A stretch of DNA of 64,000 bases. Source: Thermoplasmatales archaeon (GTDB lineage Archaea; Thermoplasmatota; Thermoplasmata; Methanomassiliicoccales; Methanomethylophilaceae). The position numbers and the translations under genes were made by a program. The stretch is taken from assembly GCA_012515075.1 (NCBI GenBank), contig JAAYZC010000003.1:1-64000 (forward strand), in the 5' to 3' direction. A model generated the notes under the pieces. It was not told the DNA's origin. It worked only from the letters and a program-made list of their open reading frames with translations, and made no database searches. Positions 2,664 through 37,130 of the stretch are shown piece by piece (positions within the stretch are counted from its first letter, which is position 1; each line of letters starts with the position of its first letter).

Positions 2664-4253
2664 TCAGGCCTCTATCCTGAGGATCCTCATGTCGCTTCCG
2701 ACCTCGCCGTTGGCCTTGAGGCCGAAGGTCCCCACCAGGACGTCCAGTATCGCCGGGGTGACGAACTCGGGCAGGCGGGGGCCCAGCATGATGTCCTTTA
2801 TGCCCAGGTGGAGCAGCGAGAGCAGCACAAGGCATGCCTTCTGCTCGAACCATGCTATGTTGAAGGACAGCGGGAGCTCGTTGATGCTCACACCAAAGGC
2901 CTTGGACAGCGCATCGGCTATGACCACGAGAGAGTAGCAGTCGTTGCACTGACCGGCGTCTATGACGCGGGGTATGCCTCCGATGTCTCCGAGACCCAAC
3001 TTGTTGTAGCGGTACTTGGCGCATCCCGCGGTCAATATGACCGTGTCCGCAGGAAGGGCCTTCGCGAACTCGGTGTAGTAGGTCCTGCCCTTCTCCCTGC
3101 CATCGCAGCCGGCCATGACGACGAACCTCTTGATCGCGCCCGTCTTCACGGCATCCACCACCTTGTCCGCCAGGGACAGCACCGTTCCGTGGGCCAATCC
3201 TATCACCAGCTCCATGTCGTCTATCTTCTCCGGGGGCTTGCACCCCTTGGCCATCATGATGATCTCGGAGAAGTCCTTGTCGCCGTTCACGTCCGCAGGT
3301 ATGTACTTCACCCCGGAGACCCCTGCGACACCGGTGGTGAACAGCCTGTCCTTGTACTCGTCGGTGGGTATGAGAACGCAGTTGGTGGTCAGCAGTATGG
3401 GTCCGTTGAAGGAGGCGAACTCCTTCTTCTGCTCGTACCAGGCACCGCCGTAGTTGCCCACCAGATTGTCGTACCTCTTGAGCTCGGGGTATGCGTTGGC
3501 CGGGAGCATCTCGCCGTGGGTGTAGACATCGATGCCCGTGCCCCTGGTCTGCTCCAGGAGCATCCTGAGGTCCTTCAGGTCGTGGCCGGAGATCAGGATG
3601 CCGGGGTTCTTGCCGACACCTGTCTTCACCACGGTTATCTCGGGGGTGCCGAAGGTGTCGGTGTTGGCCTTGTCCAGGAGGGCCATGCACGTGACTCCCG
3701 CCTCGCCGCATTCCATGTTGAGTGCGACCAGTTCATCGGCCGACAGGTCCTTCCTTATGGCTGCCAGGCCCTTCCTGAGGAACGCCTCCACCTCTTCGTC
3801 GGTCCTTCCGAGGACCACGGCATGGTGGTAGTAGGCTGCCAGTCCCTTTAGTCCGGCCAGCAGGAGCTCCTTCAGGGAGCGCAGGTCGGCGTTCCTGTCG
3901 AAGGATTCGATGCCCACTCCCTCGGGGGGATGGGAGGTCCCGCAGAAGTGGCATGCCGCATCCAGCTCCTTTATCAGAGCCTTGTTCTCCCTGAAACAGC
4001 TCTGGATGGTATCCAGATCGAAGTTGGTGTTGGTAAGTGTCATGAACAGCCCGTCCGCCACTCTGGCGTCTATATCGGCCAGGACGTCCGCGGGCAGATC
4101 CTTCTCCTCTGCGGCCTTGGACAGGACCATGAGCGACTGTATCAGGAGGTCCTGGGCATCCGCTACTTCCGGTGTCTTGCCGCAGACCCCTATCTTCGTG
4201 CATCCTCCGTTCTTTATCGTCTCTTCACATTGTCTGCATCTCATATGATTCAC
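2664..4253 (-). CDS. hcp: Hydroxylamine reductase / hybrid cluster protein
   Basis: N-terminal CRQCEE...GGCTKIGVCGKTPEVADAQDLL Hcp signature and full-length prismane-type sequence (529 aa). Confidence 0.93.
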   Translation of the reverse strand: MNHMRCRQCEETIKNGGCTKIGVCGKTPEVADAQDLLIQSLMVLSKAAEEKDLPADVLADIDARVADGLFMTLTNTNFDLDTIQSCFRENKALIKELDAACHFCGTSHPPEGVGIESFDRNADLRSLKELLLAGLKGLAAYYHHAVVLGRTDEEVEAFLRKGLAAIRKDLSADELVALNMECGEAGVTCMALLDKANTDTFGTPEITVVKTGVGKNPGILISGHDLKDLRMLLEQTRGTGIDVYTHGEMLPANAYPELKRYDNLVGNYGGAWYEQKKEFASFNGPILLTTNCVLIPTDEYKDRLFTTGVAGVSGVKYIPADVNGDKDFSEIIMMAKGCKPPEKIDDMELVIGLAHGTVLSLADKVVDAVKTGAIKRFVVMAGCDGREKGRTYYTEFAKALPADTVILTAGCAKYRYNKLGLGDIGGIPRVIDAGQCNDCYSLVVIADALSKAFGVSINELPLSFNIAWFEQKACLVLLSLLHLGIKDIMLGPRLPEFVTPAILDVLVGTFGLKANGEVGSDMRILRIEA

Positions 4254-6343: not shown

Positions 6344-6438
6344 CACACTATATCAATGTTTTGCAGAGGCCGTGCCGTACGTCTGATCCTGGAACAAACG
6401 CTTAAAGGACCATCATCATATTGTACATAGGTGAAGAT

Positions 6439-7773
6439 GTGAACAGGGGCTTCTTGCTCATAGTAGCGGCGGTGGCCGCAATGGTCGCCGTGGGAGGTGT
6501 GCTGGCATCGGGTGTGCTCCATCAGGGAACGGACTACGAGGGGAGGACTGTCACCCTCATAGACCATCTGGACAGAGGAGAATACGATGAGGTCTTTGAA
6601 ATGTTCGACGACACCATGAAAGAGGACCCCTCCGCCAAAAACCTGCAGGCCACCTGGGAAGAGCATATACTAAGCAATTACGGACAGTTCGGCACGATAG
6701 AGGAGATCGATTACACCGATCAAACGCCCTACAGAATCGCCCAGGCATACTGCCATTTCATGTACGGCGGCTTGTGCATAACCGTTGTTTACAACATAGG
6801 GGGAACCGTGGCAGGACTGTTCTTCGGACCCTGGAACACAGATGATGACATGAATCTGCCCGAAGGTCTGAAGGAATCCGACGTCCTGATTAACAAAGGG
6901 ACGGAATGGGAGCTTGCCGGAAAGCTGACCGGACTCACTGGAGGGATTACAGGGACGGCCGCCGTGCTCGTACACGGCTCGGGACCCAGCGACATGGACG
7001 AGACGATCTACACCAACAAGCCCTTTCGCGACCTGGCATGGGGGCTCGCGGAGAGCGGCATCGATGTCCTGAGGTACGACAAGAGGACGTATGCGCACGG
7101 GGCGGCCATGGCCTCCATGGACAAGCTGACCGTGGAGGAGGAGACCATCCAGGACGCCATCGCCGCGGGGGTTATGCTCAGGGAGATGGGATACGAGAAC
7201 GTGTATCTGATCGGACACAGCATGGGCGGCATGCTGGCCCCCCGCATCCTCGAGGAGTGCCCCGGGACGTTCGACGGATTCGTCTCGATGGCCGGGAGCC
7301 CGCGCACCCTGACCGAGATAATCATCGACCAGAACCGGGCCGCCATAGAGGAGCTGGAGGGAGAGCAGAGGGAGTACTACGAGGGATTGATAGAAGCGGA
7401 GATCGGGAAGCTGGACCTCATGGACCGGTGGACGGAGCAGGAGCTTCTGTCGAACACCGTGTTCAGCCTGCCGGCCTACTACGTGAAGGAGATGAACTCC
7501 CATGACGCCGCGGAGGCGGCCAGGGGGCTTGACGTCCCCATGCTGTTCGTCCAGGGTTCGGCGGACTTCCAGGTCTCCGTCGAGAAGGACTACGAAGCGT
7601 GGCGCGACGCGATGAAGGGAGAGTCTTCGGCGGGGTTCATACTGTACCCCGGGCTCAATCATCTGTTCATGGTGTCCCAGGGCGACGACGCGGGCACGCT
7701 GAGGGAATACGCCCAGAAGGGCACCGTCAGCAACACGGTGATCGAGGACATCGCGGAGTTCATACTGGGATGA
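6439..7773 (+). CDS. Exported alpha/beta hydrolase with N-terminal DUF3887-like domain
   Basis: N-terminal hydrophobic signal, LIGHSMGG nucleophile elbow, C-terminal NHLF His. Confidence 0.8.
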   Translation: MNRGFLLIVAAVAAMVAVGGVLASGVLHQGTDYEGRTVTLIDHLDRGEYDEVFEMFDDTMKEDPSAKNLQATWEEHILSNYGQFGTIEEIDYTDQTPYRIAQAYCHFMYGGLCITVVYNIGGTVAGLFFGPWNTDDDMNLPEGLKESDVLINKGTEWELAGKLTGLTGGITGTAAVLVHGSGPSDMDETIYTNKPFRDLAWGLAESGIDVLRYDKRTYAHGAAMASMDKLTVEEETIQDAIAAGVMLREMGYENVYLIGHSMGGMLAPRILEECPGTFDGFVSMAGSPRTLTEIIIDQNRAAIEELEGEQREYYEGLIEAEIGKLDLMDRWTEQELLSNTVFSLPAYYVKEMNSHDAAEAARGLDVPMLFVQGSADFQVSVEKDYEAWRDAMKGESSAGFILYPGLNHLFMVSQGDDAGTLREYAQKGTVSNTVIEDIAEFILG

Positions 7774-7838
7774 TCCGAGCATGCGTCGGACATTTCGGGC
7801 AGGATAATATAGACGTCTGGAGATGAAGGGAGGATACC

Positions 7839-8363
7839 ATGAAAACCATCAAAGACTTCGTCACGGACATACCGAACTTCCCGAAAGAGGGGATAATCTT
7901 CAGGGACGTCACCACGATCCTGAAAGACCCGGAGGGACTGAGGCTGGCGATAGACGGGCTCTCGGACATGCTGAAGGACGTGGAGTTCGACATGGTGGCC
8001 GGATCGGAGTCCAGGGGATTCATATTCGGGGCGCCGATAGCGTACAATTTCAACAAGGGCTTGGTGATCGTCCGCAAGAAGGGGAAGCTTCCCAGGGAGC
8101 ACATAGCCCAGGAGTACGACCTGGAGTACGGCACGGCCACCCTCGAGATGCACACAGACTCCATAGAGCCGGGGCAGAAGGTCGTCATCATCGACGACCT
8201 GATAGCCACGGGCGGGACGACGGAGGCCATGATAAAGATGATCGAGAAGCTCGGCGGCGAGGTCGTGAAGATCTGCTTCGTCATAGAACTCGAGGGCCTG
8301 GATGGTAGGAAGAGGCTCGCCGGATACGATGTGGAGTCGCTTGCGATCTACGAAGGCAGATGA
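7839..8363 (+). CDS. apt: Adenine phosphoribosyltransferase
   Basis: VVIIDDLIATGGT PRPP-binding motif, GSESRGFIFGAPIA, RKKGKLP. Confidence 0.92.
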   Translation: MKTIKDFVTDIPNFPKEGIIFRDVTTILKDPEGLRLAIDGLSDMLKDVEFDMVAGSESRGFIFGAPIAYNFNKGLVIVRKKGKLPREHIAQEYDLEYGTATLEMHTDSIEPGQKVVIIDDLIATGGTTEAMIKMIEKLGGEVVKICFVIELEGLDGRKRLAGYDVESLAIYEGR

Positions 8364-8417
8364 CCCCGGGCGCGGGCATTCAGCAGACAGATATAGTCGC
8401 ACGGCGATGATATAAAC

Positions 8418-9872
8418 GTGGGCATCCTGGACGTGTTGATAGCTGACATAGGCGTCACCATTGTGATAGTTGACGCTGTGCTCATAATCATGATGATGTT
8501 CTGGGAACGCTCGGATCCCAGATCCGTCCTGGTATGGGCCGTGGTTATGCTCTTCCTTCCGCTGGTCGGGTTCGTGGCCTACCTGGTGGTAGGCCAGACC
8601 TTCTACACAAAATGGAGCTTCAAATCCAAGAGAGTCTCCGACGCCCATGCGGTGCGCGCGTTGTCCAGACAGCTCGAGGCCGTGCGCCGTGAGATGGACG
8701 CCGACCCCCGCTTCTGCGAACGCCTGAGGTTCGCCGGCACATTGACCGGATCGGGCGCCGGTGCGTACTCCAACCGGAACCGGGTCACCCTTTTCACGGA
8801 CGGGCGCGAGAAGTTCGATTCCCTCTTCGAGGACCTCAGGAACGCCAAGGAGCACATAAACTTCGAATACTACATAATAAGGAACGATGAGCTGGCCGAC
8901 GAGCTGATGGACATACTGTCGGAGAGGGCGGCGGCGGGTGTCGAGGTCCGGCTGATGGTTGATGCCATCGGGAGCAACAGTCCCAAGAACAGAATCAGGG
9001 AGTTCAAGGAGGCCGGGGGGAAGTACACGCTCTTCCACAGCACCCTCACGGTGCTCCTGAGCCCGCGCAAGAACAACCGCAACCACCGCAAGGTGGCCGT
9101 GATAGACGGGAAGGTGGCGTACATAGGCGGGTTCAACGTCGGCACGGAGTATCTGGGCCTGGGGCCCCTGGGTTACTGGAGGGACTCCGCTGTCAGGATC
9201 GAGGGGGACTGCATACTGCACATCCAGAGCAAGTTCCTGTCCGATTGGAGGTACGCCACCAGGGAGGACATCGTCACCGAGGAGAGATTCTATAGAAACA
9301 TCGGACCCGCCCCGGGCGGCGATGACGGTGTCCAGATGGTGTCGGGAGGGCCGGACTGCGCGGATCTAAACCCCATACACATACAGTATCTTAATATGAT
9401 AACGAAGGCCGAGAGCACCCTGTACATACACACGCCCTATCTGTCCCTGGATCCCTCGCTGATAGACGCGCTGAGGATATCCGCCATGTCCGGAACGGAT
9501 GTAAGGATAATGATCCCGGACAAGCCGGACCACCCCTTCGTGTTCTGGAACAACCGCTACAACGCCGACCTGCTGATGAGATGCGGGGTGAGGGTCTTCC
9601 AGTATCGGAAGGGATTCGTCCATTCGAAGACCGTGGTAGCCGACGGTAGGTACTGCTCGGTCGGGTCCGCCAACTTCGACATAAGGAGCATGAAGCTGAA
9701 CTTCGAGACCAACGCGATGATCTACTCCGAGAGGGTGGGCAGTATGATGAAGGAGGCGTTCGAAACGGACCTGGAGGATTGCGTGGAATACACCCGTGAG
9801 GACTATGCGGGGAGGACCACCGTCGAGAGATTCAGGACGGGCGTCTCACGTATGTTCAGCGGACAGGTCTGA
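8418..9872 (+). CDS. cls: Cardiolipin synthase / phospholipase D family protein
   Basis: Two HKD motifs (NHRKVAVIDGKVAYIGGFN; HSKTVVADGRYCSVGSANFD), N-terminal transmembrane helices; GTG start. Confidence 0.9.
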   Translation: MGILDVLIADIGVTIVIVDAVLIIMMMFWERSDPRSVLVWAVVMLFLPLVGFVAYLVVGQTFYTKWSFKSKRVSDAHAVRALSRQLEAVRREMDADPRFCERLRFAGTLTGSGAGAYSNRNRVTLFTDGREKFDSLFEDLRNAKEHINFEYYIIRNDELADELMDILSERAAAGVEVRLMVDAIGSNSPKNRIREFKEAGGKYTLFHSTLTVLLSPRKNNRNHRKVAVIDGKVAYIGGFNVGTEYLGLGPLGYWRDSAVRIEGDCILHIQSKFLSDWRYATREDIVTEERFYRNIGPAPGGDDGVQMVSGGPDCADLNPIHIQYLNMITKAESTLYIHTPYLSLDPSLIDALRISAMSGTDVRIMIPDKPDHPFVFWNNRYNADLLMRCGVRVFQYRKGFVHSKTVVADGRYCSVGSANFDIRSMKLNFETNAMIYSERVGSMMKEAFETDLEDCVEYTREDYAGRTTVERFRTGVSRMFSGQV

Positions 9873-9881
9873 GCTCCTGGA

Positions 9882-10760
9882 TCATCTGATCCTTTTCCTC
9901 ATGCTGGAGACCCTGCGGGCGGCCTGCACTCCCTGAACGTATACCGAGGAGGGGGCATGGGCCATGAACCTGGAGAGCGATGCGGAGCCCATGGCGACCT
10001 TCCGAGGTATGCTCTTCTCGAGGCCGATGACTCCGTTGCGCCCTCTCCTTATGCTGTCCAGCAGCCCGTCCGTGTCGGACTCGTCGGACACGGTGAGCAC
10101 GTTGCCCAGTTCGCTCAGCATATGGCCGTCGGTCCCCCCCGTGTATCCGAGCCCCATGTCGCGTGCGCACTCCAGAGACCTTAGGTTGCCGGCCCTGGTC
10201 ATCCCGCTGCATATCACCTCGTAGGCGTCCAGGCGCCCCCCCGTCTCCTTGGGCAGGTATCCCTTGTCGATGCACACCTGGAGCCCTTTGTTGGTACCCA
10301 GATATCCCATGGGGTGGGCCGCGGAAACTATGCAGTTCAGGCCATCCTCCTCCACCTTGTCAAGGAGCCAGCCGACCTCACCTCCCTTCCTGAGCCCCAG
10401 CCATGGATTGGCCTGCAGCTTGGGCCTTATCTCCTCGGCCCAGAAGGAGTAGAGGTCCTCCGCGTCGTAGAAGTACATCAGGATATGGGGGCCGTCGGCC
10501 GTGCTCACCTCTATGCCGGGGACGACCGTGACGCCGGTGTCGTAACCGTACGCCTCCCGGACACCGCCGATGAGATTGTGGTCGGTGATGGCCAGAGAAA
10601 CGTTCCTCCTCTCGGCCAATCTCAGGGCCTGCCTGATGTCGGTGTAGGAGTCGGAGTAGCGGGTGTGGTAGTGCATGTCCGCACATATCCCGTGCTCCTC
10701 AGCCAGAGCATCCCAGTCCGGATGCCGGAAGGACACCCTGTCGTCCATCACCTCATGCAT
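9882..10760 (-). CDS. PHP domain metal-dependent phosphoesterase
   Basis: DMHYHTRYSDS, TDHN, AAHPMG motifs; start codon choice uncertain. Confidence 0.8.
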   Translation of the reverse strand: MHEVMDDRVSFRHPDWDALAEEHGICADMHYHTRYSDSYTDIRQALRLAERRNVSLAITDHNLIGGVREAYGYDTGVTVVPGIEVSTADGPHILMYFYDAEDLYSFWAEEIRPKLQANPWLGLRKGGEVGWLLDKVEEDGLNCIVSAAHPMGYLGTNKGLQVCIDKGYLPKETGGRLDAYEVICSGMTRAGNLRSLECARDMGLGYTGGTDGHMLSELGNVLTVSDESDTDGLLDSIRRGRNGVIGLEKSIPRKVAMGSASLSRFMAHAPSSVYVQGVQAARRVSSMRKRIR

Positions 10761-12037
10761 AGCTCTCTCCATATTTCCTCGGAGGCATCCATGACCTCGT
10801 CCGCGTCCAGCGTCTGCACGGCACCATCCCGGACCACGGCGTCGCCCTGGCACAGGACCGTTCTGACGTTCAGGCTGGAGGCAGAGTAGACTATGTTCGC
10901 TATGATGTTCTCGGGCACCAGAGGGCGCATGTTAGGCGCGTGACCGTCCAGTATGACGAGATCGGCGTACTTGCCAGGCTCTATGGAACCCAGGACATCA
11001 CCCATGCCGACGGCCTCGGCGCCGTTGACCGTCGCGAAGTCCAGGAGAGTCTGGGCGGGGGCGACCGTGGCGTCCCACCTGCTTGATTTCTGCAGAAGTC
11101 CCAGGATCTTCATCTCCGAGAACATGTCCAGACTGTTGTTGGTAGTGCTGCCGTCGGTACCTATTGACACATTTACGCCTTCCCTCAGGAACTCGGGCAC
11201 CGGCGCGACACCGCCTGTGGCCAGCTTCATGTTGGATACCGGGCACATGGACACGGACATGCCGGCCGCCCCCATTAGCCTGACCTCGTTCATAGTGAGC
11301 CATGCCGAGTGGGCGGCTATCGCCCTTCTGCTCAGCGCGCCTATGCTGTTCAGCCACTCAGCAGGTCTCATTCCGGTAGCCTTCTTCATGTTGTTGACCT
11401 CCTCCCTGGTCTCCGAAAGATGGAGGTTCATGGGGGCGTCAACGGCATCCGAGAACTCCTTGGCTCCCAGACAGGTCTCCTCTCCGCACACGTACACGCC
11501 CTGCAGACCGACGCCGGGGACTATCTTCCTCTCCCTCTTGAAGCGGGAGTGGAAGCTCCTGCAGTTCTGCAGGGGGTTCCCCTTCTGTGTGGTGTACCTC
11601 TCATCCAGACAGCACCAGCAGAGTACACCTCTTATTCCGGCGGCCTTGGTCGCCTCAGCTATCACGTCCTCGGAGTAGTAGAGGTCCACAAAGGTCGTGG
11701 TGCCTCCCCGCATCATCTCCATGCATCCCAGTTTGGTGCCCACGTCCAGGTCGCGATCGGTCCTGTCGGAGTCTATCCGGAAGACCTTGTCCAGGAAGTC
11801 CGGGAAGAGCAGATCGTCCACTACGCCTTTCATCACGGACATGGCCACGTGCGTGTGGGTGTTTATCATCCCGGGCATGACTATGTCCCCGGAGGCCTCG
11901 ATGACCTCATCGGCGTCTCCAGTGTACTCGGGGCCGACGGAGACGATCCGTTCGCCTTCGACTACGACATCCCCCCTCAATACCCTCCGGGAAGGGTCCT
12001 GTGTCACAATCCAAGCATCACGGATCACCGTCAACAT
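10748..12037 (-). CDS. Amidohydrolase, SAH/MTA/5'-deoxyadenosine deaminase family
   Basis: PGMINTHTHVAMSVMKG, HLSET, SIGTDGSTTNN; full-length 429 aa. Confidence 0.87.
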   Translation of the reverse strand: MLTVIRDAWIVTQDPSRRVLRGDVVVEGERIVSVGPEYTGDADEVIEASGDIVMPGMINTHTHVAMSVMKGVVDDLLFPDFLDKVFRIDSDRTDRDLDVGTKLGCMEMMRGGTTTFVDLYYSEDVIAEATKAAGIRGVLCWCCLDERYTTQKGNPLQNCRSFHSRFKRERKIVPGVGLQGVYVCGEETCLGAKEFSDAVDAPMNLHLSETREEVNNMKKATGMRPAEWLNSIGALSRRAIAAHSAWLTMNEVRLMGAAGMSVSMCPVSNMKLATGGVAPVPEFLREGVNVSIGTDGSTTNNSLDMFSEMKILGLLQKSSRWDATVAPAQTLLDFATVNGAEAVGMGDVLGSIEPGKYADLVILDGHAPNMRPLVPENIIANIVYSASSLNVRTVLCQGDAVVRDGAVQTLDADEVMDASEEIWRELCMR

Positions 12038-12111
12038 GGGGCCTTGATTTTCATGCTGTTTATTAACGCTTTCGTAGTTTCATAAAAGGGATATACATCC
12101 ATCCCCTTGAG

Positions 12112-29138: not shown

Positions 29139-30050
29139 ATGAAGATATGGGAGTTCGCTAAGGTCGAAGGGTCCAGCATTAAGGTGGACAAATGGGTCTC
29201 GGACACTATGGGGCTCATAGAAGGCGGGTGCGTGTACAGCACGCTCTTCAAGTACCCCATGAAGGGTCCGAAGATGTACGAGCTCATACTGTCGATGTTC
29301 CCCCAGGAGAACTACCGCACCCTGACCAAGGTCACCATGTACCTGCAGGACGTGCCCGGGGCCAGCGCTCAGGCCGCCCGCTTCCTGGCCGACAGGGGGA
29401 TCAACATCCTCAACTCGATATCCCTGAACGGCATATCGGACACCATAATCGTGTGGAAGATCCTGGCTGACCTCAACTTCACCGGAGAGGGCGACATAAT
29501 CAAGGAGAGGCTCGCGGAGCTCAAGGCCGCCAGGGACCCCTCGGTGGACAAGATCGACCACATAAGCGTCAAGGCCACGGACATCGGACGTGTGTTCCGC
29601 ACCGAGACCGCCCAGGCCCAGGACAAGATAGAGGTCAGGAAGGGTGCCCCCCAGACCCTCAAGGACGGCGCCTTCGACACGTCCAGGGAGTACGGTGACG
29701 TGCTTTCGGGGGTCGGGGACAGCAACGTCCTGATAACCATGGACTCCGAATCCTGGATACTGTCCATCACATTCTTCAGACCGGGCACCAGACTCGTGAG
29801 GCTTGGTCTGGACATACCCGACTGCCCCGGCGCGATCACTCAGGCCCTGGAGCTTCTGGCCTCCAAGGGGCTAAACCTGATCTCCATATTCAGCAAGGTG
29901 AAGATAGCCTATCAGACCATGTCACTGGAGCTTGTGGCCGACATCGGGGGCACGGACCTGACCGTCAGGGGGCTCGGGGACAGCCTGCCGGAAGAGATGA
30001 GCGGATTCAACGGAATATTCGAACTCACCGAATGCAGCGAACTTGAATGA
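29139..30050 (+). CDS. Double ACT-domain protein, putative regulator
   Basis: Two ACT-like segments (VTMYLQDVPGASAQAARFLADRGINILNS; LVRLGLDIPDCPGAITQALELLASKGLNLISI); ATGA overlap with acsB. Confidence 0.75.
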   Translation: MKIWEFAKVEGSSIKVDKWVSDTMGLIEGGCVYSTLFKYPMKGPKMYELILSMFPQENYRTLTKVTMYLQDVPGASAQAARFLADRGINILNSISLNGISDTIIVWKILADLNFTGEGDIIKERLAELKAARDPSVDKIDHISVKATDIGRVFRTETAQAQDKIEVRKGAPQTLKDGAFDTSREYGDVLSGVGDSNVLITMDSESWILSITFFRPGTRLVRLGLDIPDCPGAITQALELLASKGLNLISIFSKVKIAYQTMSLELVADIGGTDLTVRGLGDSLPEEMSGFNGIFELTECSELE

Positions 30051-32215
30051 GGGGCGGGATGCGCTGGCAGGATTCGACGGGGAGATTCGGGGCGAAGGAC
30101 GCTGGGACGCTTGCCGCCCTCGTGTCCCCGACCGAGGGGGAGAGCTTCCTCTCCGCAGCCTCCGAGGGGGCCATGCTCCTTGCGGATCTGGCCGCCGAGG
30201 CCGTTGCCCGGGCGATATCCGAACACGGCGACGGCGCCCTCCTCTCCCTCCCCGGCACCGAGTACGGCCTGCCGTGCCTTTACGGATGGAAGGGGGTGCG
30301 GACGCTCGCCCTCGGGGAAGCGGAGACGTTCCTGCAGACCATGGCGATACCTGAGCCCTCATCCCCAGATTGCCTCCGGACCATCGGCGAGAACTCCCTC
30401 CTGGCCGCGGAGATCGCGGAGGCCGCCGCCTGCATATCGGGGAGCGGGGCCTGCATCGGATTCATACCCGACAGCGAGGTCGCCGTGCACGGGCTTTCAG
30501 TGGTGGACGGCACCATACCCGGAGCGGCAGTCCTTCTGGCTGACAGCGGACACCGGGAGACCGCCGAGGGTATGGCCGCCGAATGCCTTTCCAGGGGCAT
30601 GTTGGCAATGGTCTGCTGGGATTCCGGGGCGGGTGCCCCCGCTTGCGACCGGAAACACTTCTTGGGAGAGGCTGCTGGGGCCTTCCGTTCTCTCAGCTTC
30701 GCGGTCAGGGTCGCCCTGTCCATGGGCGGGGTGAGGCCCGGCGACCGGAAGGGGCTCAGCTCATACCTGGACAAGAGGTTCAGGGTCGCCGTGATAGGGA
30801 CGGGCGCCTTCAGCAGGCTCGATGCGGCGTTCTTCTCCGCCGCGCTGCTCCACGGAGCTTCGGTGGTGACGGACCGCGACATCCCGGGCGCCCCGGAAGG
30901 CGTGTCATGCTGCGAAGACGGACGCAGGATGGTCATCCGGGCCATCGAGGAGCGTGGCATCGAGGCCTTGGACGCCTTCCCCGACATTCCGGTCAGATAC
31001 GGTCCGGAGTTCGAAGGGGAGCTGGTGAAGGGGGAGCACGTACGCCTGGTGGCCGGAGGGGATGGGGCGATGTGCTTCGAACTCCTGACATCGGCCGACG
31101 GCGATGCGGTGGAGGACGGCAGGGTGCACCTCATAGGTAGGGACATCGGCTCTTTCGGGGAGGGGGACCGTGTCCCGCTCGCTCTGGTCGTGGAGGTGTA
31201 CGGCAGGGAGATGCATGCGGACCTGGAGTCCGTGATGGAGCGCCGTATCCATCGCTGGATCAATTTCGCAGAGGGGGTGTGGCATTCCGGACAGCGTGAC
31301 TCCGTGGAGATCAGGGTCAGCGGAGGAGCCCATGCCGCGGGATTCGTCCTGAAGGACCTCGGGAGGATCGTTGTGAGCATGGTTAAGCGGGAGTTCGGAA
31401 GGACCGTCACCCGCGTCCAGTGCACCGTGGTCACGGACCCTTTGGAGGTCGGGGCGCGCCACCCCGGGGCTTTGGCAGCGTATCGCCGGAGGGACTTGCG
31501 CACGGAGGGTCTGAAGGACCCTTCGGTGGATGATTTCTACTCGTGCTCGATGTGCCGTTCCCGCACCCCGGACCATCTTTGCATAATATCCCCCGAGAGG
31601 CCGGGTCTGTGCGGATCCGTGAGCTGGCTGGACGCGAAGGCGGGAAAAGAGATTTCCCCCTGCGGACCCTATCGTCCCGTCGCCAAAGGCATCGAGAAGG
31701 ACCCGGTAAGAGGAGAATGGACCGGAGTGAACGAGGCTGTGCGCTCCGCCACCGCCGGGGCCGTGCCCCGTGTATGCATGTACAGCATAATGGATGCGCC
31801 GATGACCTCGTGCGGATGCATGGAAGCCGTGGTGGCCGTGACCGCGGATGCCCGGGCGTTCATCATAGCGGACCGGGACTACAGGGGGATGACCCCCGCC
31901 GGCGTGGACTTCCCCGGTCTGGCGGCCCATGCGGGCAGCGGCATTCAGACGCCGGGCTTCATGGGCATAGGCAAGAGTTATATTGCAAGCGAAAGGTTCA
32001 TCTCCGCCGAAGGCGGCCTGCCGAGGGTCGCCTGGATGACCTCACGTCTGAAGGCCCTGATAGGGCCGGAACTGAGAAGGAGATGTGAGGAGCTTGGCAT
32101 GCCGGACCTCCTGTGCAGGATCGCCGACGAGACTGTGACGGAGGATGCGGAAGGGCTGGCGGCATGGATGGAGAAGGTGGACCATCCTGCCCTGCACATG
32201 GATCCCCTTCTGTGA
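30047..32215 (+). CDS. acsB: Acetyl-CoA synthase, bacterial-type full length
   Basis: 722 aa; A-cluster ligands CSMC...LCIISPERPGLCGSVSWLD and CGC motif (MTSCGCMEAVV). Confidence 0.93.
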   Translation: MRGGMRWQDSTGRFGAKDAGTLAALVSPTEGESFLSAASEGAMLLADLAAEAVARAISEHGDGALLSLPGTEYGLPCLYGWKGVRTLALGEAETFLQTMAIPEPSSPDCLRTIGENSLLAAEIAEAAACISGSGACIGFIPDSEVAVHGLSVVDGTIPGAAVLLADSGHRETAEGMAAECLSRGMLAMVCWDSGAGAPACDRKHFLGEAAGAFRSLSFAVRVALSMGGVRPGDRKGLSSYLDKRFRVAVIGTGAFSRLDAAFFSAALLHGASVVTDRDIPGAPEGVSCCEDGRRMVIRAIEERGIEALDAFPDIPVRYGPEFEGELVKGEHVRLVAGGDGAMCFELLTSADGDAVEDGRVHLIGRDIGSFGEGDRVPLALVVEVYGREMHADLESVMERRIHRWINFAEGVWHSGQRDSVEIRVSGGAHAAGFVLKDLGRIVVSMVKREFGRTVTRVQCTVVTDPLEVGARHPGALAAYRRRDLRTEGLKDPSVDDFYSCSMCRSRTPDHLCIISPERPGLCGSVSWLDAKAGKEISPCGPYRPVAKGIEKDPVRGEWTGVNEAVRSATAGAVPRVCMYSIMDAPMTSCGCMEAVVAVTADARAFIIADRDYRGMTPAGVDFPGLAAHAGSGIQTPGFMGIGKSYIASERFISAEGGLPRVAWMTSRLKALIGPELRRRCEELGMPDLLCRIADETVTEDAEGLAAWMEKVDHPALHMDPLL

Positions 32216-32225
32216 GAGTGATAAA

Positions 32226-33155
32226 ATGAACGATATTCCGCAGGTCGCAGAGAAGTACAAGGGTGAGATCGCAGAGATTGTCCTGGGCAAAGGGGACTAT
32301 GTCGCGGGGGGCGCGAAGGGCATGCCCTTCCTTTCCTTCGAGAACCCTTCGAAGAGGAGGCCCATGATAGCAGGAGAGGTCGTGGACGACCTGGAGGGGT
32401 ATCCTGAGATGGCCGCCCGCATGTTCGACGGCCGTCAGAACGACCCCGTGGAATGGGCGGTGATGTGGAAGGAGCTGGGCATGGATGCCGTATGCGTGCG
32501 TCTGCTGAGCACCGACCCGGCCCGCCGGGGCGCATCACCCGAGGATGCGGCCGAGACCGTGAGGAGGATCGCAGACAGGACCGGGCTGCCAGTGATCGTA
32601 TGCGGATGCGGCGACCGTGCCGTCGACGGCAGGACCATGGCCGCCGTCAGCGGGGCCGTGAAGGACAGCCGGCTCATACTGGCCAAGGCCGAGGAGGAGG
32701 ATTACAAGACCGTCTCCGCCGCCGCCATGGCGAACGGGCACGTGGTCCTCGGTTTCTCCAACCTGGATATAAATCTCGCCAAGCAGATGAACATTCTCCT
32801 GTCCGATTTCGGGATAGACGGAGACAGCATCATCATGGACCCGCTCATGGCTCCGCTGGGCATGGGGCTCGACTATTCGTACTCCGTCAACGAGAGGATA
32901 AGACTGGCCGCGCTTTCCGGCGACGGCATGCTGCAACAACCGATGCTGTGCGATACGACCTCCGCCTGGGACGTGGGGGACGCGACGAGCCAAGACGACC
33001 CCGCCCTCGGGGACCCTGTGCACAGGGCCACCTGGTGGGAGGTGATGAGCGCATTGGCCGCAATGATGTCCGGCGCGGATATCCTGGTCATGCGCGGACC
33101 GGCTGCTGCGGACATGGTGAAGGTCTATGCGGCGGAACTCACGGAGGCGGACTGA
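32226..33155 (+). CDS. acsD: Corrinoid iron-sulfur protein small subunit
   Basis: TIM-barrel CdhD/AcsD family (AGGAKGMPFLSFENPSKRRPMIAGEVVDD; LSDFGID..IIMDPLMAPLGMGLDYSYSVNERIRLAAL). Confidence 0.92.
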   Translation: MNDIPQVAEKYKGEIAEIVLGKGDYVAGGAKGMPFLSFENPSKRRPMIAGEVVDDLEGYPEMAARMFDGRQNDPVEWAVMWKELGMDAVCVRLLSTDPARRGASPEDAAETVRRIADRTGLPVIVCGCGDRAVDGRTMAAVSGAVKDSRLILAKAEEEDYKTVSAAAMANGHVVLGFSNLDINLAKQMNILLSDFGIDGDSIIMDPLMAPLGMGLDYSYSVNERIRLAALSGDGMLQQPMLCDTTSAWDVGDATSQDDPALGDPVHRATWWEVMSALAAMMSGADILVMRGPAAADMVKVYAAELTEAD

Positions 33156-34483
33156 TGGCGACCGCGATGGAATTCTTCAAGCTCCTGCCCAAGACCAACT
33201 GCAAGGACTGCGGGCACCCCACATGCCTGGCCTTCGCCATGCAGCTTGCCAATGGAAAGGCCTCGCTGGAGGACTGCCCCCACATCAGCGAGGAATCGAG
33301 GAAAACACTGAACGAGTCGTCGGCCCCGCCCATGCGCACCGTGAGAATAGGTACGGGTGACAGGGCTGCGGTGATGGGGGGTGAAACGGTGCTCTATCGT
33401 CACGAACGCCGTTTCGTGAACCCGACCGTGTACGCGGTGACCGTGTCCGACGGACTGAGCGACGAGGAGATCGTTTCCAGGGTGGGATACGCCGCCTCGC
33501 TGAGGTTCGAGCGCGTCGGGACAGTGTTCAGGTTGGACTGCATATCGGTCCGCAACGATTCGGGGGATGCGGAGAGGTTCTCCGCGGCCGCCTCGATGGC
33601 CGCGGGATCCTGGGATTCCCCCCTCATCCTGGAGTCGGAGAGCCCTTCGGCGATGTCTGCCGCGCTGGACGCCGTTAAGGGACGCCGTCCGCTGATATGC
33701 GGGGCGTACCCCGGCAACATGGACCGCATGATGGAACTGGCCAAAGAGCACGGATGCCCCCTGGCTCTCAGAGGCGGAACGCTGGAGGAGACTGCATCCA
33801 TGGCCGCCCGGGCGAAGGCCGCCGGAATCGAGGACATGGTTCTGGACACGGGGGCGGTGACCCTCAAGCAGTGCCTTGAGAGGCAGACGGCGGCGAGGCG
33901 CGCGGCGGTCAGGAAGAAGTTCCGGGCTCTCGGGTACCCTCTGATGAACCGCGTGGGCTCCGGCGAATACGCTGTGGCCCTGGCGTCCGTATCAACCATG
34001 AAGTATGGCAGCCTTGTCATATTCGACGATCTTAAGCCTTACGAGGCTCTGCCCCTGTTCACCCTGAGGAACAACATCTACACGGACCCCCAGGTCCCGA
34101 TACAGGTCAAGCAGGGGGTGTATCCGATAGGCTCACCCGACTCCCATTCCCCGATAATGTTCACAACGAACTTCTCCCTCACATACTTCACCGTGAGAGC
34201 GGACATAGAGAAATCCAAGATACCGGTCTGGCTCCAGGTTGTTAACACCGAGGGCCTGTCGGTACTCACCGCATACGCCGCAGGAAAGTTCGATCCTGAG
34301 CACGTGGCCGAGGCCTTCCGGGAATCAGGGATACTGGATAAGAGCGATTCCGCCGTCATAGTGCCCGGACTGGTCGCCCGCATGTCGGGGAAGCTCGAGG
34401 AGATCATCGGCAGGAGGGCCGTTGTGGGCACCAATGAGTCCAAGAACATCCCCAAGCACCTCAGGGAATTCATGTCCGGATGA
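33155..34483 (+). CDS. acsC: Corrinoid iron-sulfur protein large subunit
   Basis: N-terminal KTNCKDCGHPTCLAFAMQLANGKASLEDCP [4Fe-4S] motif; TGATG overlap with acsD. Confidence 0.92.
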   Translation: MATAMEFFKLLPKTNCKDCGHPTCLAFAMQLANGKASLEDCPHISEESRKTLNESSAPPMRTVRIGTGDRAAVMGGETVLYRHERRFVNPTVYAVTVSDGLSDEEIVSRVGYAASLRFERVGTVFRLDCISVRNDSGDAERFSAAASMAAGSWDSPLILESESPSAMSAALDAVKGRRPLICGAYPGNMDRMMELAKEHGCPLALRGGTLEETASMAARAKAAGIEDMVLDTGAVTLKQCLERQTAARRAAVRKKFRALGYPLMNRVGSGEYAVALASVSTMKYGSLVIFDDLKPYEALPLFTLRNNIYTDPQVPIQVKQGVYPIGSPDSHSPIMFTTNFSLTYFTVRADIEKSKIPVWLQVVNTEGLSVLTAYAAGKFDPEHVAEAFRESGILDKSDSAVIVPGLVARMSGKLEEIIGRRAVVGTNESKNIPKHLREFMSG

Positions 34484-34517: not shown

Positions 34518-35531
34518 TCAGTCGAACCCGTACCTCGACCTCATCAGCTCGGACACCTGTCCGGTGAGGGCTATAACCCTGTCCGCCGTGGACTCCTCCG
34601 CGCCCCCCAGTCCGCACTGCGGGGTGATCATGGATTGCTCGGCGACCTTATCGCCGTCGATCCCTTTGGCCTCCAGAAGGCCTATTTGGGACTCGAGCAT
34701 GTCCGCCAGAGCTTCCGCCGAGACATCCGTCCCGTCGCTGTTCGGCACTATGCCCCATGATACCACCCCTCCCCTGTCCAGGAAGGACGATAGTTCCGAG
34801 GGGAAGAGCGCCAGGGTGCGGCCGTAACCGTAAGCGTCGAAACTGAGGATGTCCAGATCCGTGCTCAGAACCATCCCCCAATCCGTATTGCCGCAGCAGT
34901 GCACGGCCCTGTGGCATCCGATGCCCTCCATGGACTCGTTCATCCATCTGACGGCGTCTTCGGGGGATACCGATGCGAACGGGGACCCCAGAAGGGTCAG
35001 GGAAGGTTCGTCGAAGAACAGTATCACGTTGGGGTTCCTCTCGGAGAGTTCACGGGCCTGCCATCTGGCAGTCATGTTGACGGTCTTCCTGACAATCTCG
35101 CAGTAGGATTCGTCGTATATCACCGAACGTCCGGTCAGGTCCTGGACCTGGAGCCCTTCGCTGACGGGGCCGGTAACCTGCCCCTTGACCGCAGGGAATC
35201 CGGAGAGGTCCCTGTCCATGAGCTCATAGAGGCCCGCGTTGCATTCCCTCGGGTTCTCGAAATGGTCGACGTCGTCCGAGAGTATCGCGGTGTACGCATC
35301 CGTGGGATCGTATCCTCCGAGGTCCACCGTGATCTTCTGCTCCTCCTCGCTGAACACCACACCCGGAAGGCGCAGCCCCGTCTGGACGTACATGCTCTCC
35401 CTGTATCCTCTGGCCGGCAGCTGTGGCCAGGAAGGGAATGTAATGCCTCCATCCAGTATCCTGTCCACGGCCTTGACCGGATCGGCGTAGGGGAGCGAGC
35501 CTATCAGTGTGGTTGCGAACCTCCATTCCAT
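34518..35531 (-). CDS. Core (C-terminal-only) cobalamin-independent methionine synthase-like protein
   Basis: 337 aa MetE C-terminal fold; FDEPSL, HRAVHCCGNTDW and MITPQCGLGG candidate Zn ligands; no N-terminal MetE half. Confidence 0.87.
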   Translation of the reverse strand: MEWRFATTLIGSLPYADPVKAVDRILDGGITFPSWPQLPARGYRESMYVQTGLRLPGVVFSEEEQKITVDLGGYDPTDAYTAILSDDVDHFENPRECNAGLYELMDRDLSGFPAVKGQVTGPVSEGLQVQDLTGRSVIYDESYCEIVRKTVNMTARWQARELSERNPNVILFFDEPSLTLLGSPFASVSPEDAVRWMNESMEGIGCHRAVHCCGNTDWGMVLSTDLDILSFDAYGYGRTLALFPSELSSFLDRGGVVSWGIVPNSDGTDVSAEALADMLESQIGLLEAKGIDGDKVAEQSMITPQCGLGGAEESTADRVIALTGQVSELMRSRYGFD

Positions 35532-35555: not shown

Positions 35556-37130
35556 TTAAACCCTCTTGCCCGGTCCGAACAAGGAGGGGAATTGCTGCGA
35601 ATCGGTGTGCGGCAGGAACTGGGCCGACGAGTATTCGTCGAAGAACACGGGATCGGAACCCAGATCCCTGTATGTCATCCGCCGGAATGCCTCGGTCGTC
35701 CTTGTGCGGAAACCCTCGGAAACCAGGTACTGCCTGGCTCCGCCCAGGGACGCGTTCCCGAGGTACTGGTACCGGTCCCTGTCCACATCTGGGAAGAGAC
35801 CGATGGCGATGGCGGAGTCAGTGTCTATGAACTTGCCGAACCCGCCGGCAATGTATATCCTGTCGAGGTCTGAGAACTCCGTCCCCAGACCTTTCGCCAT
35901 GGACCTGGCCGCCGAGTATATGGCAGCCTTGGTCATGATTATGTGCTTTATCTCGGATTCTGATATGTTTATCCCGTCTGCCACCGTCAGAAGCCTTTCC
36001 CCGTCCTCTTCGGTGTATGGCGCTTCCCCTGTCATGTTGCCCTTCTTGTCTATCATCCCCGCCAGGAAGAGCTGGGCCACCAGATCCACTATTCCCGATC
36101 CGCATATGCCCTCTGGCTTCGAACCCCCGATCACGGTGTACGTTATCCTGCCGTCCTCTATCCTGACACTGTCTATGGCCCCCGGGTTTGCCATCATCCC
36201 GGAGGCTATGTTTCCTCCTTCGAACGCCGGGCCCGCCGACGACGAGCACACCAGCATCATCTCCGCGTTTCCAAGGGCCACCTCCCCGTTGGTGCCCACG
36301 TCCATGAGCAGGCAGAGGTCTTCCGAGCGGTCCATCCCGGAGAAGACTATGTCGGAGGCTATGTCACCGCCGACATAGGAGGCTGAGCAGGGCATGCATA
36401 CGACCCTTGCGTCCGCTGATACGCCACGGATTCCGCTCTCGGAGCCCTTTATCTCGGACTCCCTGAACTCGGGCACATAGGGGGGAAGCCTCAGAGGGGC
36501 CGGGTCCCTGCCCAGGAAGAGATATGTCATCACGGTGTTCCCTGAGATGCAGACCGAATCGATCTCCGCCGGGGCCTCGAACCATTCCAGAAGGCCGTTG
36601 ATGGTGCCTAACAGCAGATCCCTGAGCTCCCCGGTCCCGTTGTCCTCGGAGTACTGTATCCTGGAGAGCACGTCCTCGCCGCGGATCCTCTGCATGTTCT
36701 CCCCGACGGCCGTGTAAAGCTCCACTCCCTTATCGAGATCCAACACGCTCACGCCCACGGTCGTGGTGCCTATGTCCACCGCGAGACCCAGCCCCCCGGA
36801 CAGAGGCGTGAGGTCCTCGGCGTCCACCCTCCTGCGGTCCGATGCGGCGATGGTGGAATCGCTCTCCTTCCTTATTACCTGGATTACGGCATCGTACGAA
36901 ACGGGCGTCTGGCATGCCAGCACCCGATCCATCCCGCATCCGTCGAAGGGAACATCGCTCTCCGGCGCTATGCGCACGCCGCATTTCCCGCATCTGCCCC
37001 TCCCCCCGCACGGGAGCCTGATGGGCACCCCCGCCTGCTTGGCCGCTTCGGAGATGAGCGTCCCCTCTTCGACCTCCGTCGTCTTTCCGTCCGGATGGAA
37101 TCTGACAGTGAATCCTGACATGCACATCAA
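35556..37130 (-). CDS. acsV: RACo-type reductive activator of corrinoid proteins ([2Fe-2S] + ASKHA)
   Basis: Plant-type ferredoxin motif LPCGGRGRCGKCGVRI...ACQT then ASKHA domain (AVDIGTTTVGVSVLD, LMDVGTNGEVALG, YIAGGFG). Confidence 0.9.
   Translation of the reverse strand: MMCMSGFTVRFHPDGKTTEVEEGTLISEAAKQAGVPIRLPCGGRGRCGKCGVRIAPESDVPFDGCGMDRVLACQTPVSYDAVIQVIRKESDSTIAASDRRRVDAEDLTPLSGGLGLAVDIGTTTVGVSVLDLDKGVELYTAVGENMQRIRGEDVLSRIQYSEDNGTGELRDLLLGTINGLLEWFEAPAEIDSVCISGNTVMTYLFLGRDPAPLRLPPYVPEFRESEIKGSESGIRGVSADARVVCMPCSASYVGGDIASDIVFSGMDRSEDLCLLMDVGTNGEVALGNAEMMLVCSSSAGPAFEGGNIASGMMANPGAIDSVRIEDGRITYTVIGGSKPEGICGSGIVDLVAQLFLAGMIDKKGNMTGEAPYTEEDGERLLTVADGINISESEIKHIIMTKAAIYSAARSMAKGLGTEFSDLDRIYIAGGFGKFIDTDSAIAIGLFPDVDRDRYQYLGNASLGGARQYLVSEGFRTRTTEAFRRMTYRDLGSDPVFFDEYSSAQFLPHTDSQQFPSLFGPGKRV

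Follow-up and report, generated by a model that had tools for sequence, protein, structure and literature searches.

In bacteria, CODH and acetyl-CoA synthase (ACS) normally operate as one complex, with a gas tunnel linking the two; the N-terminal domain of the bacterial ACS contacts CODH and houses the CO tunnel along with four residues of the alcove. In the Moorella ACS, CO is cradled by five residues, and the substitution F229A abolishes productive CO binding and autotrophic growth while methylation survives; in the archaeal enzyme CdhC, mutation at the F512 equivalent weakens affinity for methyl and makes CO more inhibitory (PMC11321310). An AcsB without CODH has been described in Dehalococcoides as cleaving acetyl-CoA, with the CO leaving the cell, and the methyl group of methionine derives there from acetate, the core methionine synthase MesB being proposed to take it from a corrinoid protein (PMC7005905, PMC7857596). 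H4F-type Wood-Ljungdahl genes and CODH/ACS have been reported in the archaeal order Methanomassiliicoccales (PMC10804542, PMC6147122); the order, the H4F branch genes, and ACS are common to these reports and to the present case, and the passages of them searched do not describe a CODH-AcsB fusion, its decay, a linkage to MesB, or a CODH-less ACS.

The locus described here lies in a 64,000-nucleotide stretch of DNA (the window) from a methane-forming, gut-type member of the Methanomassiliicoccales whose genome (G000) encodes mcrA, and the named relatives found through its AcsB belong to the same order. As in Dehalococcoides mccartyi, AcsB, CFeSP, and MesB are present and no CODH or MetE was found; the host, in contrast, is an archaeon that has the MetF and AcsE missing from D. 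mccartyi, its relatives carry CODH fused to AcsB, and its own AcsB has lost alcove residues.

A bacterial-type AcsB in an order-typical cluster

As read from sequence, the genes stand in the order ACT-acsB-acsD-acsC, with mesB-acsV convergent to them (Table 1), an arrangement that recurs in most of the relatives examined; of 147 genomes from this order, 71 have AcsB, and a search of plasmids returned Acetoanaerobium only. The ACT protein has two ACT-like regions, is kept even where AcsCD and MesB have been lost, and is possibly a regulator or ligand sensor. In most of the family f1 genomes examined, g14 included, the acs cluster is linked to an aldehyde dehydrogenase family gene, as in the window.

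Table 1. Positions of the features discussed, in the window and in related loci
Feature	Sequence	Positions	Strand	Basis or remark
Hydroxylamine reductase/Hcp	window	2667-4253		734 bits; CODH relative, open to confusion with CODH
ACT-domain protein, 303 aa	window	29139..30050	+	4-base overlap with acsB; conserved ahead of acsB in most of the sampled genomes
acsB, bacterial-architecture acetyl-CoA synthase, 722 aa	window	30047..32215	+	ORF, Pfam, NCBIfam, phmmer
AcsB N-terminal domain, residues about 40-312	window	30164..30982	+	PF18537 and alignment to Moorella 27-312
A-cluster C500, C503, C512, C522; R506 in place of alcove F512 (Moorella numbering)	window	31544..31612	+	Alignment
CGC nickel motif C589-G590-C591, then M592 (= F598 in Moorella)	window	31811..31822	+	Alignment
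acsD/cdhD, CFeSP small subunit, 309 aa	window	32226..33155	+	Exceeds NF003376 cut-off by 299 bits
acsC/cdhE, CFeSP large subunit with 4Fe-4S motif, 442 aa	window	33155..34483	+	Exceeds NF003195 cut-off by 539 bits; PF04060
mesB-type core methionine synthase, 337 aa, Zn ligands H211, C213, D232, C306	window	34518..35531	-	Residues, predicted fold; adjoins acsC across the order
AcsV/RACo corrinoid-protein reductive activator, 524 aa	window	35556..37130	-	Fer2, Raco_middle, RACo_C_ter
Aldehyde dehydrogenase family gene	window	38735-40141		
FolD, MetV, MetF, AcsE	L203 (G000:C49)	7138-11317		
CODH-AcsB fusion	L084	4984-9084		
CODH-AcsB fusion	L085	4891-8964		
CODH-AcsB fusion	L086	4912-8985		
CODH-AcsB fusion	L094, L095, L096, L098, L204, L207, L208			
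CODH half with most metal ligands gone, before normal AcsB	L212 (G126)	7955-12046		
CODH remnant on AcsB N-terminus	L067, L068, L069, L077, L087, L100, L101			
AcsB split by apparent frameshift	L090 (G015)	6700-10489		
Divergent CODH, 628 aa	L217 (g7)	6388-8271		

The preliminary description of the window had proposed a full-length AcsB of bacterial architecture together with AcsD and AcsC of bacterial size, and both points hold. The AcsB frame is uninterrupted, its Pfam domains follow the order CODH_A_N, CdhC, ACS_CODH_B_C, and residues 40-722 align by phmmer to residues 27-729 of the Moorella ACS with 490 bits, near end-to-end; AcsD and AcsC have the lengths claimed. The best NCBIfam family is the bacterial alpha/beta equivalog NF040764, and since the score of 646.7 bits lies below the cut-off of 800, the protein is divergent. 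Compared with the AcsB of the Moorella and Carboxydothermus CODH/ACS, it is alike in three-domain architecture, in A-cluster ligands, and at about 38% identity, but lacks a CODH partner and carries F229M, F512R, and F598M. With CdhC, the beta subunit of the archaeal ACDS complex, it has in common the homologous C-terminal part and the A-cluster; CdhC, however, lacks the N-terminal domain, and the C-terminal part of the present protein, compared over almost identical spans, gives 418 bits with Moorella (3git) against 276 with CdhC (9c0s). In an AcsB tree (a short, unrooted search read with the bacteria outside and built on AcsB sequences without archaeal CdhC), the Thermoplasmatota form one block adjoining the bacteria. 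Domain content, scores, and tree thus support assignment to the bacterial type, as had been claimed.

The further suggestion of lateral transfer into this organism does not survive comparison with its relatives. Bacterial architecture is what would speak for a recently acquired bacterial acs module, or for a mis-binned bacterial contig, but the nearest AcsB sequences are those of Methanomassiliicoccales (up to 50% identity, against 35-40% for bacteria), the gene order is common to the relatives, and the tree places G000 AcsB inside family f1. A recent arrival is thus exceedingly improbable, and we treat it, with mis-binning, as ruled out by the common gene order and the trees. Because the operon is conserved in the order and fused CODH-AcsB already occurs in other Thermoplasmatota lineages, any transfer must have been ancient.

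CODH absence and a one-chain CODH-AcsB in relatives

The preliminary description had noted that no CODH adjoins acsB, and none does at the locus. Across the whole genome, which is 78.55% complete, the sole PF03063 match is the Hcp in Table 1 and the CODH profile finds nothing else; the Hcp, being a hydroxylamine reductase, was rejected as a CODH encoded elsewhere. Given that completeness, absence from G000 alone is no proof of CODH loss. Among 41 AcsB-bearing genomes with completeness of 90% or more and contamination of no more than 5%, 18 are without a CODH match of at least 100 bits, and none was found in the AcsB-bearing relatives G117 (99% complete), G110 and G116 (95%), and G024 (94%). 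A divergent CODH in g7 differs at several conserved His/Cys columns, and strong TIGR01702 matches also occur in g8 genomes without AcsB.

Among the genomes with retrieved loci, seven Methanomassiliicoccales (G001, G004, G005, G125, G130, G132, G134) encode CODH and AcsB as one chain of about 1357-1374 aa, as do three other Thermoplasmatota families. The CODH half keeps all 20 conserved Cys/His columns in six of the seven and 19 in G130. In an eighth, G126, the CODH half is a dead domain, full-length but with most of its metal ligands gone, and the AcsB behind it is normal. In f4, g10, g13, and g30, AcsB begins with an extension of 260-330 aa that lacks consistent metal ligands and aligns by hhalign to the CODH C-terminal region (E 3.6e-12 for f4 with g30; 2.9e-6 for g10 with g13); E stayed above 0.08 in all ten column shuffles run for each group, and other operon-protein profiles gave 9e-4 or worse. 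A duplicated AcsB domain was not favoured as the source, the AcsB N-terminal profile giving E of 0.16 and 9e-4 in the same two groups. The remaining AcsB proteins, that of G000 included, have no such extension. In G015 an apparent frameshift breaks AcsB in two.

The fused CODHs group beside clostridial AcsA, in a clade other than that of the order's separate CooS genes; the relatives' separate 645-aa CooS was on this ground rejected as the cognate partner of AcsB. With bacteria taken as the outside of the unrooted AcsB tree, fused forms are the early branches and remnant and unfused forms are nested, so that the ancestral partner was probably a CODH in the same chain. The retention of a CODH-contact domain without CODH, to which the preliminary description had drawn attention, is thereby accounted for, since the partner was fused to that domain in relatives, where it is now intact, dead, a remnant, or gone. 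Within the open-access literature, to which our search was confined, we found no account of CODH-ACS fusion or decay, and the novelty of the fusion is accordingly provisional.

Loss of alcove aromatics

The A-cluster had been described as intact, and for the ligands it is: all six cysteines (C500, C503, C512, C522, C589, C591) and the CGC motif are kept. The same cannot be said of the alcove, in which F229 and F512 have become M and R; F598 is M as well. The five CO-cradling positions of Moorella (G145, I146, V149, F229, F512) read G, L, V, M, R, M226 standing in place of F229. Among 116 AcsB rows, G000 is the only one without an aromatic at 229 and the only one without an aromatic at 512, and F598M is confined to G000 and g14. 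The end branch of G000 AcsB in the tree is 1.6 long, against 0.05-0.6 in relatives, while the identities of its AcsC, AcsD, AcsV, and MesB to relatives are about those of other genera. The long branch and lost alcove aromatics beside these normal partners indicate that constraint on AcsB specifically has changed, and the acceleration together with the loss of F229, F512, and F598 makes the activity of the enzyme uncertain. The altered constraint may reflect either decay or adaptation to cleavage.

A changed role for the N-terminal domain, also proposed earlier, fares less well. The domain is only 40-45% identical to that of close relatives, compared with 48-61% for the rest of the protein, but it is the least conserved part in other genera too and the whole of G000 AcsB is accelerated; any change of role would appear to be visible in the active site, not in the N-terminal domain alone.

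Possible roles for an ACS without CODH

The MesB-type protein found no match among Pfam families, NCBIfam families, or PDB sequences. Its S12, D174, H211, C213, D232, and C306 are invariant and coincide with the published homocysteine (S, D) and Zn (H-C-D-C) positions of MesB, which in Dehalococcoides are residues 15, 177, 214, 216, 235, and 311 (PMC7857596), with near-identical spacing. A model predicted from a 17-row alignment has a pLDDT of 92.8 and methionine synthases as its top PDB folds; MesB membership entails a predicted MetE-like fold and AcsC/AcsD encoded in the genome, and both are found here. Homologs close to bacterial acs genes share 32-40% identity with it, and G000 yielded no further gene of the MetE type. 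Of the 147 genomes, 63 have both AcsB and MesB, eight AcsB only, nine MesB only, and 67 neither (Fisher p 1.5e-22, in a test that ignores kinship).

On balance, we think it probable that the cluster is an order-typical, bacterial-type ACS module left after CODH loss, most likely running acetyl-CoA decarbonylation to CFeSP and MesB. The ancestor would have been a single CODH-ACS chain whose CODH half decayed and then disappeared in the G000 lineage. AcsB would cleave acetyl-CoA, the CO leaving; the methyl group would pass to the AcsCD corrinoid, with AcsV as activator, and MesB would transfer it from there to homocysteine. The direction of the ACS reaction, the release of CO, and the CFeSP-to-MesB transfer are proposed by analogy with D. 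mccartyi, for which acetyl-CoA cleavage to methionine with CO release has been put forward.

Against this reading, G000 has MetF and AcsE, by which methyl-H4F could supply the methyl group of CFeSP with no part for ACS. AcsB would then be dispensable, vestigial or drifting, while CFeSP so methylated served MesB, an account we judge rather unlikely. The clustering of FolD, MetV, MetF, and AcsE on one contig, the long AcsB branch beside normally conserved partners, and the lost alcove aromatics all suit it; yet the frame is fully open, the six A-cluster cysteines and the overlap with the ACT gene persist, FTHFS was not found in the incomplete genome, and g2 and g11 have MetF but an AcsB with all alcove aromatics. 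The g12 genomes are without MetF and have one PF00809 match each. The same H4F methyl branch and AcsE would allow acetyl-CoA synthesis from methyl-H4F and CFeSP, with CO supplied externally or by a CODH encoded in the fifth of the genome not recovered, and a route from formate through the H4F branch to acetyl-CoA figures in a report on the order (PMC10804542). This is less likely still, since the near-complete AcsB-bearing relatives G024, G110, G116, and G117 (94-99%) have no CODH, FTHFS is among the genes not found in G000, and F229, without which the Moorella enzyme does not bind CO productively (PMC11321310), is M here.

Six g14 genomes have AcsB and no MesB match, and at the five g14 loci read (L079-L083) AcsB stands with AcsV, ACT, and ALDH genes and without AcsD, AcsC, or MesB; AcsB can therefore persist without an acetyl-CoA-to-methionine pathway. 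The g14 enzyme, which has CSC instead of CGC, keeps the A-cluster cysteines and is under purifying selection (dN/dS 0.12-0.21), and G000 AcsB, with which F598M is held in common, joins it in the tree with support of 92/93. Recruitment of G000 AcsB to a different, CO-independent reaction is nonetheless very unlikely: AcsCD and MesB are still in its cluster, and the join is a meeting of long branches, possibly a case of long-branch attraction; with g14 removed G000 stays within f1 beside g2, g11, and g12. We put forward only tentatively, as doubtful but conceivable, that once the fused CODH was gone AcsB in this lineage gave up the alcove that holds CO and turned into an acetyl-CoA decarbonylase working in one direction, or into some other A-cluster enzyme independent of CO, for biosynthetic methyl transfer, a step towards the g14 relatives that keep AcsB without CFeSP.

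Every stage is on display in the Methanomassiliicoccales: CODH and ACS fused in one chain, a chain whose CODH domain is dead, ACS with a CODH remnant, and ACS by itself. The role of ACS without CODH, the use of acetyl-CoA as a biosynthetic methyl source in archaea, and whether tunnel and alcove are needed only for CO retention are therefore testable within one order, and a natural one-chain CODH-ACS may be useful in biochemistry.
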